A DNA stretch of 6,537 bases from Collinsella aerofaciens (GTDB lineage: Bacteria; Actinomycetota; Coriobacteriia; Coriobacteriales; Coriobacteriaceae). Position 1 is the stretch's first letter. Every line of letters starts with the position of its first letter. Below the pieces are notes generated by a model, which did not search any database, was not told the DNA's origin, and saw nothing but the letters and a program-made list of their open reading frames with translations. The DNA lies in contig RKAY01000162.1 in NCBI GenBank assembly GCA_014846205.1, positions 1 to 6,537 of the forward strand, given 5' to 3'. The translations under genes and the position numbers were made by a program. Positions 1 to 6,495 of the stretch are shown here, piece by piece.

Positions 1-61
1 GGGCACGGAAGCCATGGGTCTTGGCACGCTTACGCTTATTAGGCTGATACGTACGCTTCAT
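1..61 (-). CDS. rpmH: 50S ribosomal protein L34, N-terminal part (truncated by window edge)
   Basis: Read on the minus strand from the ATG at 61-59, the frame gives MKRTYQPNKRKRAKTHGFRA, the highly conserved beginning of bacterial L34, a small basic protein of the large ribosomal subunit that is usually about 44 residues long. Only the first 20 codons lie in the window. An ideal Shine-Dalgarno sequence (AGGAGG, 75-70) sits 8 bases before the ATG and fixes the start. rpmH pointing away from dnaA across the origin is a very common bacterial arrangement and supports the reading of 62-406 as origin DNA. Its promoter and leader are described separately. Confidence 0.97.
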   Translation of the reverse strand, partial: MKRTYQPNKRKRAKTHGFRA

Positions 62-89
62 CTTAAGTTCCTCCTGCTGCATTTCGAGT

Positions 90-107
90 GTCCGCGGGGG
101 CGCGGAC
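90..107 (-). other. GC-rich hairpin in the rpmH leader
   Basis: GTCCGCG (90-96) and CGCGGAC (101-107) form a perfect 7-bp inverted repeat around a 4-base loop. It lies in the predicted rpmH leader, between the -10 box (139-134) and the SD (75-70). No T-tract follows on either strand, so it is not a typical intrinsic terminator. A role in leader stability or in control of L34 synthesis is possible but is inference. Confidence 0.45.
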
Positions 108-133
108 GCAGATATAGACACGTGAGCTTGAAG

Positions 134-163
134 ATTGTAGGGAAATCAATGTTCAAATGTCAA
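134..163 (-). promoter_or_regulatory. Probable rpmH promoter (-35 TTGACA, -10 TACAAT)
   Basis: On the minus strand, TTGACA (163-158) matches the -35 consensus exactly and TACAAT (139-134) differs from TATAAT at one base. The spacer is 18 bp (157-140). Transcription would start near 127 and give a leader of roughly 65 bases that carries the hairpin at 107-90 and the SD at 75-70. This is the clearest promoter in the window, and it faces away from the ATPase-dnaA genes. Confidence 0.75.
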
Positions 164-239
164 GAAATCAAAGGTAAAAGGTTGCAGAGTGCACACGGTT
201 CCCCCATAAGCCCGTGAGCCCTCGGGGCCGGCGAAACAC

Positions 240-345
240 TTTTCACGATATTTCATCGAGTTTTCAACAGGTCATGTTGGCAATGTTGAGAACTTTTCGC
301 CTGATTTCCAAAGTTTTCAACAGGTTTTGAAAAGTTGTCGAAAGA
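240..345. other. oriC, upstream DnaA-box cluster
   Basis: This is the core of the 345-bp gap (62-406) between rpmH and the ATPase gene; the rest of the gap is the rpmH promoter and leader plus AT-rich DNA with no gene I can support. The box-like 9-mers are TTTTCAACA at 261-269 (+) and 314-322 (+), TTCTCAACA at 284-292 (-), weaker TTGCCAACA at 275-283 (-), TTTTCAAAA at 325-333 (-) and CTTTCGACA at 336-344 (-). The sites starting at 314, 325 and 336 are 11 bp apart, about one helical turn. The 14-mer at 259-272 recurs at 312-325. No exact TTATCCACA is present. Location, clustering and phasing support DnaA binding, which could both load the origin and repress the downstream operon. Confidence 0.75.
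310..331 (+). repeat. 22-bp origin repeat, upstream copy
   Basis: This 22-mer, centred on TTTTCAACAGG (314-324), recurs at 3563-3584 in the dnaA-dnaN gap with one mismatch (A320 versus G3573). Within this copy, TTTTCAA (314-320) and TTGAAAA (327-333) form an inverted repeat with a 6-base spacer, so it may hold two facing DnaA sites. One copy in each origin half suggests a shared protein-binding unit. Confidence 0.7.
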
Positions 346-406
346 TGAGAAACATTGCGAGCTGAGCTACTATTTGTTCGAAACCTTTTGAACGATTGCG
401 AGCAGC

Positions 407-1759
407 ATGTCAGACGACTTCTACACCATGGTTGATTCGGGAGACCCGGCGCCCGATAACGAGCACATCACCGGTGTGCGTGAAGAGCGGGTCGCGGGCA
501 ACGACGCGGCAAAAAAGGCACCGAGCGCCATGTATGCGGCGCGCATCGCCGTCTACGACGACATGCTGTCGACGCCGCGCGTGATCGTTATCGAGCCGCA
601 AGACGTCCGTACCTATCTGGAAGAGACGACCAACACCGTCTATCAGTGCATGAAGGAACAGGGCGGTCATATCTCGCTCATGGTGATTCGCGAGATCGTG
701 GAAAACTTCATCCACGCGCACTTCGCGGAGCCCATCATCTCCATCCTCGATGGGGGCGACACCATTCGCTTTGCCGACCAGGGACCGGGCATCGATGACA
801 AGGAACGCGCCTTCGACTTTGGCGTAACCAGCGCAAATAGCAGTATGAAACGATATATCCGCGGCACTGGAGCCGGTTTCCCCATGGTGCAGGAGTACCT
901 GGAAAACGCCGGAGGCGCGGTATCGATCGAGGACAACATGGGCAACGGCACCGTCGTGACCGTAAGCCTCAACCCCAAACGCGTGCAGGAGATCGAGCGC
1001 GCCGGTGGACGAGGAGCCGCCGTGCGCCCCGAGACGGAGCAGCCGGCATATCCCCTACCTGGAACTTTTACGCAGCAGCCCATGGCGCCGGTGCAAATGC
1101 AGCCCCCCGTGGGACAGATGCAGCAACCCGGAATGCTTCCTACACAAGAGCCCCAGGCGGCATCGATGTCGATGCCGCCAAACATGCCAGAGGCCATGCC
1201 GCTGGCGGATCAGAATGCAGCCACAATGCAGCAGGCGACGGGGGCGCCGGGTGGCCAGCAGATGGGCTATCAACCGTACCAACAGGGATATCCATATCAG
1301 CAGATGCCGCCACTGGGATATGGCCAGCAGTTCCCGCAGCAGTACCAGCAGGGATATCAGCAGCCGTACCAGCAAATGCCGCAGCAGCAGTACAACCCCT
1401 GGGCCCAGCAGATGCCTCCGCAACCCTATCAACAGTGGCCGCAAAGTTTTCAACAGCAGATGCCGCCAATGCAGAGTTCTCAACAACCGGCAGCTCAAAT
1501 GATGTATCCTAATGCGGCTCAGCAATATTCACAGCCGCCGGCGAACACATACGTAAGCGAACGTGGAAAGAAAGCGCTGGGCTATTTAGCTCAAAACGAA
1601 GCATGCGGAGCCACCGATTTGGCAAGGGCCCTTGGGAGTTCTGCCCCCACTTGGTCACGCACGCTCAACGACCTGGCGCAAGTTGGTTTGGTGATCAAGC
1701 ACGGCCAGAAATACCATCTGACCGAGCTCGGCAGAGACCGCGTGCAGGCGCAGGGTTAA
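407..1759 (+). CDS. GHKL-type ATPase with Q/P/M-rich linker and C-terminal winged helix, dnaA-linked
   Basis: I do not recognise this 450-residue protein as a named family, but its parts are clear. Residues about 45-190 form a GHKL (HATPase_c) ATP-binding domain: N-box E96-x-x-x-N100, G1 box D124-Q-G-P-G128 and G2 box G153-T-G-A-G157, all intact. There is no His-box, dimerisation helix pair, sensor or membrane segment, so it is not an ordinary histidine kinase; the domain alone resembles anti-sigma kinases such as SpoIIAB/RsbW. Residues about 208-380 are low-complexity Gln/Pro/Met/Tyr with many YQQ and QQMP units. Residues about 383-448 look like a winged helix (recognition helix near 413-427, wing near 429-439). 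The ATG at 407 has no good SD. M42 (530), preceded by AAAAGG at 513-518, is an alternative start and removes only an acidic, non-conserved stretch. The stop lies 15 bases before dnaA, implying an operon. A role in controlling initiation or dnaA expression is inference. Confidence 0.85.
   Translation: MSDDFYTMVDSGDPAPDNEHITGVREERVAGNDAAKKAPSAMYAARIAVYDDMLSTPRVIVIEPQDVRTYLEETTNTVYQCMKEQGGHISLMVIREIVENFIHAHFAEPIISILDGGDTIRFADQGPGIDDKERAFDFGVTSANSSMKRYIRGTGAGFPMVQEYLENAGGAVSIEDNMGNGTVVTVSLNPKRVQEIERAGGRGAAVRPETEQPAYPLPGTFTQQPMAPVQMQPPVGQMQQPGMLPTQEPQAASMSMPPNMPEAMPLADQNAATMQQATGAPGGQQMGYQPYQQGYPYQQMPPLGYGQQFPQQYQQGYQQPYQQMPQQQYNPWAQQMPPQPYQQWPQSFQQQMPPMQSSQQPAAQMMYPNAAQQYSQPPANTYVSERGKKALGYLAQNEACGATDLARALGSSAPTWSRTLNDLAQVGLVIKHGQKYHLTELGRDRVQAQG
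1426..1485 (+). other. Three DnaA-box-like motifs inside the Q-rich coding region
   Basis: CTATCAACA (1426-1434), TTTTCAACA (1447-1455) and TTCTCAACA (1477-1485) lie in one orientation, 21 and 30 bp apart, roughly two and three helical turns. The middle one is part of a 15-mer, CAAAGTTTTCAACAG (1442-1456), identical to 309-323 in the upstream origin cluster. The third matches the 9-mer at 284-292. The DNA encodes Tyr/Ser/Phe followed by Gln-Gln, so a coding origin is possible, but AGT TTT CAA and AGT TCT CAA are AT-rich choices in a gene whose linker mostly uses CAG for Gln. DnaA binding here is inference. Confidence 0.4.
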
Positions 1760-3487: not shown

Positions 3488-3678
3488 GAAAATAACCACA
3501 CCTGTTGATAACTTGTCGAAACCCCGGGCATAAGATGTCTAAAACCAACCGGTCGGTGACGAAAAGTTTTCAGCAGGTTTTGAACGTTGAAAACGAGGTC
3601 GGTTGCACACAGGTTTCTGTCGAATCTCTTTTTAGGTCTGACCAGCGCTTTTGCGAGTATTCGACAGTTTCGTCAGTG
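3488..3678. other. oriC, downstream DnaA-box cluster (dnaA-dnaN gap)
   Basis: No gene is credible in the 238-bp dnaA-dnaN gap. Box-like sites are TTATCAACA at 3503-3511 (-), one base from the E. coli consensus; GTTTCGACA at 3514-3522 (-), 11 bp further on in the same orientation; TTTTCAGCA at 3567-3575 (+); TTTTCAACG at 3585-3593 (-); and a weaker TATTCGACA at 3658-3666 (+), just before the trio tract. The arrangement dnaA, boxes, AT-rich tract, dnaN matches the incC half of the Bacillus subtilis origin. No intrinsic terminator for dnaA is visible. Confidence 0.75.
3563..3584 (+). repeat. 22-bp origin repeat, downstream copy
   Basis: This segment matches 310-331 at 21 of 22 bases, with G3573 replacing A, so its box reads TTTTCAGCA. 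The facing inverted half is weaker here than in the upstream copy, but TTTTCAACG on the minus strand (3585-3593) follows directly. Confidence 0.7.
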
Positions 3679-3725
3679 CTATTACTATTATTAAGATATT
3701 TATATCTATAGAAAGGTATTAAAAG
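3679..3725. other. Probable DNA unwinding element with DnaA-trio tract
   Basis: The top strand at 3679-3693 reads CTA TTA CTA TTA TTA, so the bottom strand read 3'-5' is GAT AAT GAT AAT AAT. That fits the DnaA-trio pattern 3'-(G/A)AT-5', which DnaA filaments use to grip single-stranded DNA. Of the 46 bases at 3680-3725, 39 are A or T, the most AT-rich stretch I noticed in the window. The tract follows the box cluster and ends at dnaN, as at the B. subtilis unwinding site. The same bases hold TATTAT (3686-3691) and an extended -10-like TGCTATTAC (3677-3685), so a dnaN promoter may overlap, though no good -35 is visible. The dnaN SD (3711-3716) lies at its right end. Confidence 0.7.
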
Positions 3726-4829
3726 ATGAAGTTCACCGTCAGCCAAAGCTCGCTTACGCAAGCCATCGGCGTCGTCATGAAGGGCGTCGCTTCGGCATCT
3801 ACCCTCCCCATCCTGTCGGGCGTGCTCGTCAAGGCACAAGACGGTATCTTGGAATTTCAGACCTCAAACTACACCATCTCGATTCGCCACCGTATCGCGG
3901 CCCATGTCGAAGAGGAGGGCGAGATGGTTATTCCCTGCAAGATGCTCTCCAACATCACCAAGACCTTGCCCGACGCTCCGGTCACCTTTGAGCTCTCCGA
4001 GCGACAGGTGTTGATCGGTTGCGAAAAGAGCTCGTTCCGCCTCAACACGCTCGACGCCAACGACTTTCCGGAGTTTCCGGCCTACGCCATCGAGAGTGCC
4101 GTCGAGTTGCCGACCGACATCCTGTCCGAGATGGTCGGCCGCGTGTGGCGCGTCACCTCGACCGATAAAGCTCGCCCCATCCTGGGCGGCGTGCACATGA
4201 AGGTCGAGAACAACACCGTGCGCCTGGTGGCGACCGACTCCTTCCGCCTGGCCGTGTGCGACACCCAGGTCGAGACCTCGACGCTCGAGGGCTCGTTTGA
4301 GCTCAACGTCCCGGCCGATGCCTTTAACGACGCGCTCAGCATTATGGCGGGCCAAGCCACCATCATGATCGGCGCCACCGACACCCAGGTCGTCTTTGAG
4401 GCCGGCAACACCACCTATGTGTCGCGTCGTATCGAGGGCACGTACCCCAACTACAAGCAGCTCATTCCCGATTCGTGTGTGACGAGCGTCAAGATCGACG
4501 TGGCGGCCTTCAACGCCGCCCTTAAGCGCGTGGCCGTTATTGCCAGCGCCAACCCCGCCGTCAAATTCGAGATCGATGTCGAGAACGGCCAGATGGGCCT
4601 GTCCTCTATCTCCAACGACCAGGATCTGGCACAGGAGACCATTGACGTCGAGGCCGAGGGCGAGTCGGGCACCATCGCCTTCAACTACCACTACATCTTC
4701 GGCTGTCTCAATGCCCTGTCAAAGGAGAAAGAGATCACGCTGGAGCTCAAGAGCTATTCGCAGGCGGGCATCTTTAAGTCCTACGACAAGATCAACTACC
4801 TGTACCTGGTCATGCCGGTGCGCATCTAG
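3726..4829 (+). CDS. dnaN: DNA polymerase III subunit beta (sliding clamp)
   Basis: DnaN forms the ring-shaped dimer that tethers DNA polymerase III to the template and also serves as a docking platform for repair proteins. The 367-residue length is normal for the family and covers its three repeated clamp folds. Recognisable landmarks are TLPILSGV (26-33), RPILGGV (150-156), ATDSFRLAV (169-177), EGTYPNYKQLIP (237-248) and the C-terminal MPVRI (363-367), a variant of the usual MPMRL that lines the peptide-binding groove. The ATG at 3726 follows GAAAGG (3711-3716) with 9 bases between, a good SD. The gene sits right of the unwinding element and is followed 9 bases later by recF, so the two are probably transcribed together. 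Nothing looks broken. Confidence 0.98.
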   Translation: MKFTVSQSSLTQAIGVVMKGVASASTLPILSGVLVKAQDGILEFQTSNYTISIRHRIAAHVEEEGEMVIPCKMLSNITKTLPDAPVTFELSERQVLIGCEKSSFRLNTLDANDFPEFPAYAIESAVELPTDILSEMVGRVWRVTSTDKARPILGGVHMKVENNTVRLVATDSFRLAVCDTQVETSTLEGSFELNVPADAFNDALSIMAGQATIMIGATDTQVVFEAGNTTYVSRRIEGTYPNYKQLIPDSCVTSVKIDVAAFNAALKRVAVIASANPAVKFEIDVENGQMGLSSISNDQDLAQETIDVEAEGESGTIAFNYHYIFGCLNALSKEKEITLELKSYSQAGIFKSYDKINYLYLVMPVRI

Positions 4830-4838
4830 CGTCTATCG

Positions 4839-5945
4839 ATGACTATGTTCGCCCGCGAGCTTTCCGTCGCGCACTACCGCAGTTTCGATCGTTATCGTCT
4901 GACCCTGAGCGGCGGCGTGACGGTGCTCGCGGGGCCCAACGCGGCGGGAAAGACCAACCTCATAGAGGCGCTGCAGCTGCTGACGAGCGGTACCTCGTTT
5001 AGGCATCCGACCGCTGCCGAACTCGTGCACGACGGCGTGGGCTCGTGCAGGGTCGAGCTGAGGCTCGAAGGTGATGGGCGCGTGCTGGACATGGGGCTGA
5101 GCGTGGAAGATGGCAAGCGCTCGTTTAGCCGCAACGGCAAGCGGTGCGCGGCCGCCGGCGTGCGCGGCGTGCTGCCGAGCGTTCTGTTTTGCCCGGACCA
5201 CCTGGATATGGTCAAGCGCGGCGCCAGCGTCCGTCGCGCCGCGCTCGACGACTTTGGCGTGCAGCTGAGTGCGCGCTACGCCGACCTTTCGAGCACCTAT
5301 GGCCGCTGCGTGACGCAGCGCAATGCCCTGCTCAAGGAGAGCTGGTGCTGCCGCGAGATGCTCGGCGCCTGGAATGAATCGCTTGCCCGTGCGGGCTCGG
5401 CACTGCTCGTGCATCGCTTAGCCCTGGTCGACCGACTGGCGGGCCATGTGCGTGATGCTTACGGACAAGTGGCGTCCGGCGAGCCCGCGGACGTGTCATA
5501 CGTGTCCACGCTGGGAGATTTGCCCCAGACCGAGGACCGAGAAGAGCTGAAGGGATGGGCGTACGAGCGCATGTTGGCGGCGCTCGACGAACGCGCCGAC
5601 GAGGAGATGCGCCGTGGCGTGACGCTCGTGGGGCCGCACCGCGACGAGATTGAGTTTTCCGTTGCAGGGCGGTCCGCCCGTTCATTTGCCAGCCAGGGGC
5701 AGCAGCGAACGCTGGTGCTGGCCTGGAAGGTGGCGGAGGTGGCCGTTGCCCGCGGCATTTTGGGCACTGCCCCGCTGCTGCTGCTAGATGACGTGATGAG
5801 CGAGCTCGACGCCGGGCGCCGAGACGCTTTTCTGCAGTTGATCGGCGATGATATCCAGACGGTCATAACTACCACCAATCTGGGGTACTTTACCGATGAC
5901 CTGCTTGATCGAGCCAAGGTGGTGAGCATGGGTGAGGCGTGCTAA
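4839..5945 (+). CDS. recF: DNA replication and repair protein RecF
   Basis: RecF is an SMC-like ABC ATPase that binds gapped DNA and, with RecO and RecR, helps load RecA. The 368-residue protein has the family landmarks: Walker A GPNAAGKT (32-39), the RecF motif GPHRDEI (265-271), the ABC signature region SQGQQR (285-290), and Walker B LLLLDD (313-318) followed by the D-loop SELD (321-324). Two ATGs are possible, 4839 (MTMF) and 4845 (MF); neither has a clear SD, and the 9-base gap after dnaN suggests translational coupling. The N-terminus FARELSVAHYRSF matches the usual short beta-strand start of RecF and fits either choice. No yaaA-like gene separates it from dnaN, unlike in many Firmicutes. 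Its end overlaps the next gene by 14 bases. Confidence 0.97.
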   Translation: MTMFARELSVAHYRSFDRYRLTLSGGVTVLAGPNAAGKTNLIEALQLLTSGTSFRHPTAAELVHDGVGSCRVELRLEGDGRVLDMGLSVEDGKRSFSRNGKRCAAAGVRGVLPSVLFCPDHLDMVKRGASVRRAALDDFGVQLSARYADLSSTYGRCVTQRNALLKESWCCREMLGAWNESLARAGSALLVHRLALVDRLAGHVRDAYGQVASGEPADVSYVSTLGDLPQTEDREELKGWAYERMLAALDERADEEMRRGVTLVGPHRDEIEFSVAGRSARSFASQGQQRTLVLAWKVAEVAVARGILGTAPLLLLDDVMSELDAGRRDAFLQLIGDDIQTVITTTNLGYFTDDLLDRAKVVSMGEAC

Positions 5946-6495
5946 TTATGAGCGTGAGAACGGCACGGTTGCTTTCGGTGGCTTTTTAGATGCCGAGCGC
6001 CAGCGCATTATGGCCGCGGCGACGCCGGAGCGCCGTGCTCAAATGGAGGCCGCCGAGCAATCGCGCGCAATCTATCGCGCTTGGAACACGGTATGCGCGG
6101 GAACGCGCGAAGGGCGCCATGTGACGGGTCTGCGCTATCTGCCCGAGTCCAACGAGCTGTTGGTGTATCTCGACTCGCCCTCGTGGACGCAGGAAATGAC
6201 GTTGCTGCGCGAGATCATCCGCGCGCGCATGGAGCGCGTCGGCGCACATGTTGACGGCCTGGTGTTCAAGACGACCGCCCCCGGCCACACGCCGCCCGCC
6301 GCCAAAGAGCGCCTGCGGCCGGCCGAGATCGAGCGCCCGCCGGCTCCGCACGTCGACCTCAGCGAGTCCGAGCGCGCCGAGATTGAGCGCCAAGTGGCAC
6401 CTATCGAAGACCAAAAACTGCGCGAGGCCCTCGAGAATGCCATGAGAGCCAGTGCCGAGTGGGCCAAGGGCGTGCAGAGCAAAAAAGAGCCTTAA
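5932..6495 (+). CDS. dciA: DUF721 family protein, probable replicative helicase partner DciA
   Basis: DciA (DUF721) is the helicase-loading or helicase-assisting protein of bacteria that lack DnaC or DnaI and acts on DnaB at the origin. The DUF721 core spans residues about 46-114: a helix with the conserved Trp (W51), then strands around GLRYLPESNELLVYL (66-80), the motif SPSWTQEM (82-89) with W85, and a helix leading to VDGLVFKT (107-114). The C-terminal third is charged, with LSESERAEIERQVAPIEDQKLREAL (143-167) forming a likely helix pair of the kind I recall in actinobacterial members. The start is read as GTG at 5932, overlapping the recF end by 14 bases, with AAGGTGG (5916-5922) as SD. 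ATG at 6010 is a later in-frame alternative that would still keep the core. The last 42 bases (6496-6537) hold no feature I can support. Family membership is based on pattern recognition only. Confidence 0.85.
   Translation: MRRANYERENGTVAFGGFLDAERQRIMAAATPERRAQMEAAEQSRAIYRAWNTVCAGTREGRHVTGLRYLPESNELLVYLDSPSWTQEMTLLREIIRARMERVGAHVDGLVFKTTAPGHTPPAAKERLRPAEIERPPAPHVDLSESERAEIERQVAPIEDQKLREALENAMRASAEWAKGVQSKKEP

Follow-up and report, generated by a model that had tools for sequence, protein, structure and literature searches.

A GHKL ATPase-winged helix gene kept beside dnaA in Coriobacteriia, a candidate regulator of the dnaA operon or the replication origin

The control of replication initiation is largely open outside E. 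coli, Bacillus and Caulobacter, and the dnaA locus of Collinsella raises the question of what a protein that joins an ATPase domain to a predicted DNA-binding domain might do there. The window analysed here, a stretch of 6,537 nucleotides from Collinsella aerofaciens, is such a locus, and has near-identical relatives at the protein level, with named loci that reach 97-99% identity over 102 residues. On the + strand it holds, in order, the start of rpmH (on the opposite strand), an intergenic region of 345 bp, the gene of interest, dnaA, dnaN, recF and dciA (Table 1). The original prediction described the gene product as a GHKL ATPase with intact N, G1 and G2 boxes and no histidine-kinase dimerisation domain, fused through a prion-like linker to a winged helix and encoded 15 bp before dnaA at the origin, and it named no characterised counterpart.

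Table 1. Features of the Collinsella aerofaciens window.
Feature	Position	Strand	Remarks
rpmH start (ribosomal protein L34)	1..61	-	translation MKRTYQPNKRKRAKTHGFRA; divergent from the gene
rpmH-gene intergenic region	62..406	.	holds DnaA-box-like 9-mers
DnaA-box-like 9-mers in the rpmH-gene region	261, 284, 314		TTTTCAACA at 261; TTCTCAACA at 284 (- strand); TTTTCAACA at 314
Gene, GHKL ATPase - linker - winged helix	407..1759	+	450 aa
GHKL (Bergerat-fold) domain, residues 45-190	539..976	+	N-box E96/N100/H103, G1 D124-G128, G2 G153-G157
Low-complexity linker, about residues 204-380	1016..1546	+	low model confidence, taken as disordered
DnaA-box-like 9-mer TTTTCAACA within linker-coding DNA	1447..1455	+
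DnaA-box-like 9-mer TTCTCAACA within linker-coding DNA	1477..1485	+	30 bp from the TTTTCAACA copy
Winged helix, residues 385-449	1559..1753	+	predicted model
dnaA	1775..3487	+	GTG start 15 bp past the stop of the gene
dnaA-dnaN intergenic region	3488..3725	.	DnaA-box-like site at 3503 (- strand) and DnaA-trio-like run
DnaA-trio-like run CTATTACTATTATTAAG	about 3679-3695		in the dnaA-dnaN region, beside an AT-rich stretch
dnaN	3726..4829	+
recF	4839..5945	+
dciA	5932..6495	+	PF05258, 27.2 bits against a cut-off of 24

No Rfam family matched anywhere in the window at gathering scores, and scans for promoters and terminators gave 2 and 4 hits, against 2.0 and 4.9 in shuffled sequence. One 11-of-12 promoter hit on the - strand (163-134) is consistent with a promoter of rpmH. 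The Collinsella DnaA scored 305 bits, below the NCBIfam DnaA equivalog cut-off of 343.9; its DnaA domains are nevertheless clear.

Relatives of the gene were compared in several sets of loci. The named loci (L001-L080) are the best 80 of 96 and come from Collinsella, Enorma, Olsenella, Thermophilibacter, Lancefieldella and others; L081-L117 largely duplicate them and were left out of the counts. 'Coriobacteriaceae' (L021-L045) and 'Atopobiaceae' (L046-L080) are used as labels for groups made by similarity, and some records are labelled otherwise. Further sets were 29 more diverse Coriobacteriia loci with short flanks (L118-L146) and 40 loci that belong to deeper lineages or have longer flanks (L210-L249); 8 of the latter, all within L228-L249, come from genomes that are also in L118-L146.

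A GHKL profile of 144 columns, applied at E<=1e-8, matched 264 of 296 Coriobacteriia genomes, once per genome save in five. Among the 32 genomes with no match, 20 were examined, and 13 of these also had no match to the DnaA C-terminal domain, so that the region seems to be missing from those assemblies. One other such contig (L180) begins inside dnaA. In six genomes (L174-L179) rpmH and dnaA are present but no gene of the GHKL-winged-helix type separates them, and the gene is therefore dispensable in some lineages. At E<=1e-10 a broader profile matched 158 of 396 sampled genomes of the phylum and left 238 without a match, some of the matches being Coriobacteriia already counted. The gene is present in Rubrobacter xylanophilus (P0225, P0226), in 'Candidatus Solincola' and in other Actinomycetota. 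A strain-specific gene was rejected, since relatives occur throughout Coriobacteriia and beyond. One scan of viral_contigs found no relative. A protein near that of L223 (P0170) is labelled Candidatus Bathyarchaeia archaeon and probably lies on a misbinned contig.

The ATPase domain was recognised by the Pfam profile HATPase_c (PF02518, cut-off 26.4 bits) at residues 93-189 of the window protein (42.8 bits) and in the Rubrobacter homologue P0226 (53.8 bits), and the same profile matched 30 of 30 members of alignment A3 (E<=1) and 46 of 46 of alignment A6 (E<=0.1). Across 348 distinct GHKL sequences, a count that ignores the close kinship of many of them, N100, H103, D124, G126, G128, G153 and G157 are invariant, while E96 is kept in 346 and G155 in 347. 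The near-invariance of these ATP-site residues argues for a working nucleotide site and agrees with the intact boxes of the original prediction. Among the matches listed for the GHKL profile are MutL, sporulation kinase B and, weakly, CheA, anti-sigma F factor and PDK; the MutL matches span the N and G1 boxes and the CheA match spans the G2 box. The 13 Pfam matches of the window protein (E<=1) do not include a HisKA/DHp domain, in agreement with the original prediction, and with HisKA unmatched and a winged helix fused to the ATPase the description 'orphan histidine kinase' was rejected.

The AlphaFold2 model of the window protein, built on a 74-row alignment, has a GHKL fold at residues 45-190, low confidence across about residues 204-380 and a winged helix at residues 385-449 whose ten-residue pLDDT means are 93-98. 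In the model of P0226 (268 aa) the same two domains are separated by 24 residues of pLDDT under 50. Profile scores for the C-terminus of the window protein fell just under the Pfam cut-offs (HVO_A0261_N, 32.9 against 35; MarR_2, 23.1 against 27), and the C-terminal half of P0226 exceeded the cut-off for TrmB (35.2 against 25.6 bits). We take the predicted winged helix to be real. A winged-helix match lies in the frame of the gene in 78 of the best 80 of the 96 named loci, the exceptions being L040 and L067, the latter with a broken frame. The segment is weakly charged, with a median net charge of -1 to +2 according to group, and is not strongly basic. The two proteins scanned with PADLOC had their matches within the winged helix, and the models matched were those of CasR/CARF/Csa3 regulators together with a single SoFic and a single WYL model; PHROG matches covered GHKL or HTH segments. 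The three-part architecture first proposed for the window, with its winged helix, is therefore upheld by profile and by model and is repeated in Rubrobacter. Two conditions that the original prediction named as refuting it, a gene confined to one strain and a structure prediction lacking a winged helix, were checked, and the outcome of each favours the prediction.

Databases name the relatives 'ATP-binding protein', 'HTH domain-containing protein' or 'hypothetical protein', and automatic names of others include 'anti-sigma regulatory factor' and 'ArsR family regulator'. The winged helix of L067, L227 and L124/L231 is shifted out of frame or gives no match, which may reflect sequencing errors or decay. 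When a strict pattern was applied to 54 sequences of L021-L080, 52 had a short N-terminal motif (window 407-436) that reads DFYPFV or a close variant, and the remaining 2 read DFYTFV; N-termini containing F[YF] occur in many distant family members, and the motif is possibly one for interaction.

The position of the gene was followed through the same sets of loci. In the best 80 of the 96 named loci rpmH is upstream and divergent in all 80, and in 79 of them dnaA follows the gene in the same orientation; only L040 departs from this, and its copy of the gene contains unknown bases. Among L118-L146 dnaA lies within the stretch in 27 of 29 and the winged helix is in frame in 28 of 29; the remaining loci retrieved alongside this set are kinases at other sites or, for the most part, contigs counted before. 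For L210-L249 dnaA was found in the fetched stretch in 34 of 40 loci and was the neighbour of the gene in 34 of these 34 (33 downstream in the same direction and 1 divergent), where neighbour was judged among rpmH, dnaA, dnaN and recF and small intervening ORFs are possible. The gene alone is flipped in L247 and diverges from dnaA. In four more loci dnaA is found at the opposite contig end, where a cut before dnaA in a circular chromosome would place it, and in L210 and L248 the contig ends before dnaA. Seven loci (L229, L230, L231, L232, L237, L239 and L244) have the gene and dnaA inverted together, as one unit flanked by dnaN and rpmH, so that the pair has remained intact through an exchange of its neighbours.

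The gap between the two genes is 15 bp in the window and about 6 bp in L214. Over 93 loci the distances among GHKL domains and among DnaA proteins are correlated (Spearman 0.78, against 0.23 for the highest of 200 permutations), as expected under joint vertical inheritance. The survey of dnaA loci thus finds the neighbour first seen in one strain kept across Coriobacteriia and beyond, and of all the evidence this lasting linkage speaks most strongly for a shared function. It falls short of proof, because regions flanking an origin are conserved in any case. Nor is co-transcription with dnaA universal, given the divergence in L247 and the gaps in many loci.

DnaA-box-like motifs surround the gene. 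They were sought with the pattern TTNTC[CA]ACA and compared with an expectation from dinucleotide shuffles in which kinship is ignored. Each of the 67 deeper loci tested (10/10, 7/7, 22/22 and 28/28) has such motifs 5' of the gene, and they number 24, 15, 63 and 95 in the respective sets against 0.10, 0.14, 2.58 and 1.92 expected; the sets hold only loci with enough upstream sequence (L211 and L118 were skipped), and the last two share genomes. Among the 9-mers of the rpmH-gene regions TTTTCAACA occurs most often, in 52 of 62 regions. Five of the six regions between rpmH and dnaA that have no copy of the gene (L174-L179) still carry motifs, which are therefore a feature of the origin and not a mark of the gene. 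No palindromic operator distinct from DnaA boxes was seen when the intergenic alignments were judged by eye. On these grounds the rpmH-gene intergenic region is probably the upstream part of oriC together with the control region of the operon.

Further boxes and a conserved run of the TATTACTA type are found between dnaA and dnaN. The DnaA-trio was considered for this comparison in its B. subtilis form. The run resembles the DnaA-trio of the basal unwinding system (PMC8287927). The dnaA-dnaN intergenic region is probably the unwinding side of oriC, and with boxes on both sides the gene and dnaA probably lie between the two halves of a bipartite origin. The placement of the gene at a probable origin, 15 bp before dnaA, agrees with the coordinates and with these flanking motifs.

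The Q/P/M/Y-rich linker of the window protein varies widely among its relatives. Its median length and glutamine content are 192 aa and 26% in C. aerofaciens-like proteins (21 sequences), 153 aa and 12% in L021-L045 (24 sequences), 99 aa and 19% in L046-L080 (34 sequences), 36 aa and 8% in other Coriobacteriia (49 rows, with 8 genomes counted twice), and 19 aa (range 14-33) and 1% in L210-L227 (17 sequences). The linker was accordingly rejected as a conserved functional core, its length and composition being lineage-specific. A conserved role of the prion-like linker in condensation is not supported by this comparison, and a role in condensates could at most be a later addition.

The DNA that encodes the linker is more informative. 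All 20 of the C. aerofaciens-like loci (L001-L020) retain both 9-mers of the window linker and their 30-bp spacing; these are close relatives, whose agreement counts for little alone. In the linkers of L021-L045 there are 21 boxes, in 11 of 23 scored genes (L021-L025, L027, L030, L034 and L043-L045), against 0.82 +- 0.88 expected from 200 synonymous codon shuffles (highest 4) in which kinship is ignored; 24 genes were given, and L038 was without the anchor motif. The other 12 scored genes have no box in the linker. In ten of the 11 box-bearing genes two boxes on one strand are spaced by exactly 22 bp. The reading frame of the second box differs between the C. aerofaciens-like group and L021-L045, with FST in frame 0 in one and SSQQ in frame 2 in the other, which suggests that in part of the family the linker DNA is constrained as DNA rather than through the protein. 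The GHKL-coding part of the same genes has 7 boxes against 1.76 expected (highest shuffle 7), an excess that is not telling because 6 of the 7 are codons of the N-box.

As the linker boxes exceed the codon-shuffle expectation, linker-coding DNA may itself be an origin element or a dnaA-control element in some Coriobacteriaceae-type genes. The linkers of L046-L080 have 0 boxes against 0.18 expected (32 genes given, 31 scored), and of the 13 gene-dnaA gaps inspected in that group 4 have two same-strand boxes and 3 have one. The simplest reading of these sequences is a putative DnaA-binding element just before dnaA, which some lineages would have in the gap and others within the gene.

What, then, might the protein do? 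We think it about evenly balanced that the gene product is an ATP-responsive DNA-binding regulator of the dnaA operon, of oriC or of both. In such a mechanism the C-terminal winged helix would bind DNA, most likely in the rpmH-gene region, the gene-dnaA region or both, and the N-terminal GHKL domain would bind ATP and might hydrolyse it. The nucleotide state would alter the dimerisation of the protein or its affinity for DNA, and by this coupling the protein would set the transcription of its own operon, which seems to include dnaA in Collinsella and Rubrobacter; it could also tune the assembly of DnaA on the adjacent origin boxes.

Three other readings draw on the same observations. A GHKL protein of the SpoIIAB/RsbW or PDK type might contact or phosphorylate DnaA or another initiator, with the winged helix serving only as a tether to the origin. 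The retention of the N-box residue E96 in 346 of 348 domains, the profile matches, though weak, to PDK, CheA and anti-sigma F factor and the co-inheritance of the gene with dnaA all suit this idea, but the RsbW-type profile HATPase_c_2 (PF13581) does not pick up the window domain at E<=1, finds no more than 5 of the 30 A3 members at that threshold (best E 0.0028) and gives P0226 16.6 bits, below its cut-off of 27.4, and a well-kept DNA-binding domain points to DNA before it points to a protein partner; we consider direct action on an initiator unlikely. Regulation of something unrelated to replication, such as the divergent rpmH or an unlinked regulon, is a little harder still to credit: the winged-helix fold is widespread, and rpmH is the other neighbour in all 80 of the best 80 of 96 named loci, yet in the seven inverted loci the gene remains directly before dnaA while rpmH lies on the far side of dnaA.

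Finally, the protein might act at the origin as a DNA clamp gated by ATP, or as an architectural protein, in the manner of the GHL proteins MutL, GyrB and MORC, in which ATP-driven dimerisation would hold DNA and disordered linkers would cluster. The N-box of GHL proteins and the motifs of kinases served for comparison here, and the layout E-x-x-x-N-x-x-H-A is nearer to GHL proteins than to kinases; MutL chains match the N and G1 boxes, and the linker is of low confidence, as disorder would give. Against this, the G2 box and lid are kinase-like, the GHKL domain is followed in both models only by linker with no transducer-like domain seen, and the linkers of 14-33 aa in L210-L227 make clustering unlikely as an ancestral role. 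A clamp is accordingly the reading to which we give the least credence.

For the regulator of the dnaA operon or origin, the near-invariant ATP site, the predicted DNA-binding domain and the lasting linkage to dnaA, throughout a class whose members are common in the gut and also in Rubrobacter, make the gene a strong candidate for a missing regulator of initiation, one that could connect cellular ATP to initiation. More speculatively, and on balance we doubt it, the regulator may go back to a common ancestor of Coriobacteriia, Rubrobacteria and further deep actinobacterial lineages, with a coding sequence that doubles as origin DNA in many Coriobacteriaceae, where a growing low-complexity linker would house DnaA boxes and its disorder would either result from cis-acting control of replication as a by-product or offer that control a host, unlike the DnaA regulators described so far. 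If that were true, the boxes in the coding sequence would show how an origin may spread into a gene and mould a disordered part of its protein.

With the DnaA regulators SirA, YabA, Hda and CcrZ the gene product shares a presumed role in initiation, and we know of no GHKL-winged-helix fusion beside dnaA among known DnaA regulators. Among the open-licence papers listed, judged by titles and abstract openings, no account of the gene was found, in keeping with the absence of a characterised counterpart in the original prediction, and passages of PMC5109545 and PMC8287927 do not describe it. Sensor histidine kinases and CheA (PF02518) share the GHKL fold and its N, G1 and G2 boxes and are among the best PDB matches in sequence and fold. 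The gene product differs from sensor histidine kinases in that it has no HisKA/DHp match and no sensor or membrane part was seen, its N-box ends N-x-x-H-A, a winged helix is fused to it and its gene is linked to dnaA. DIP2311 of Corynebacterium diphtheriae (PDB 3lmm) is presumably an AlbA_2-GHKL-winged-helix protein of the COG2865 kind; it differs in its chain of 556 residues, and we know of no link between it and dnaA. The window protein has no match to AlbA_2 or HATPase_c_4 at E<=1, HATPase_c_4 matches none of the 30 GHKL domains of A3, and Foldseek aligned the window protein with 3lmm over 273 columns but with an rmsd of 13.1. SpoIIAB and RsbW (HATPase_c_2) resemble the gene product as soluble GHKL domains without HisKA and through a weak profile match, and differ in that the gene product falls under the Pfam cut-off where it was scored and has a DNA-binding domain. 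The winged helices of MarR, TrmB, IclR and ArsR regulators and of Csa3 have the same fold, which here is a C-terminal appendage of a GHKL domain.
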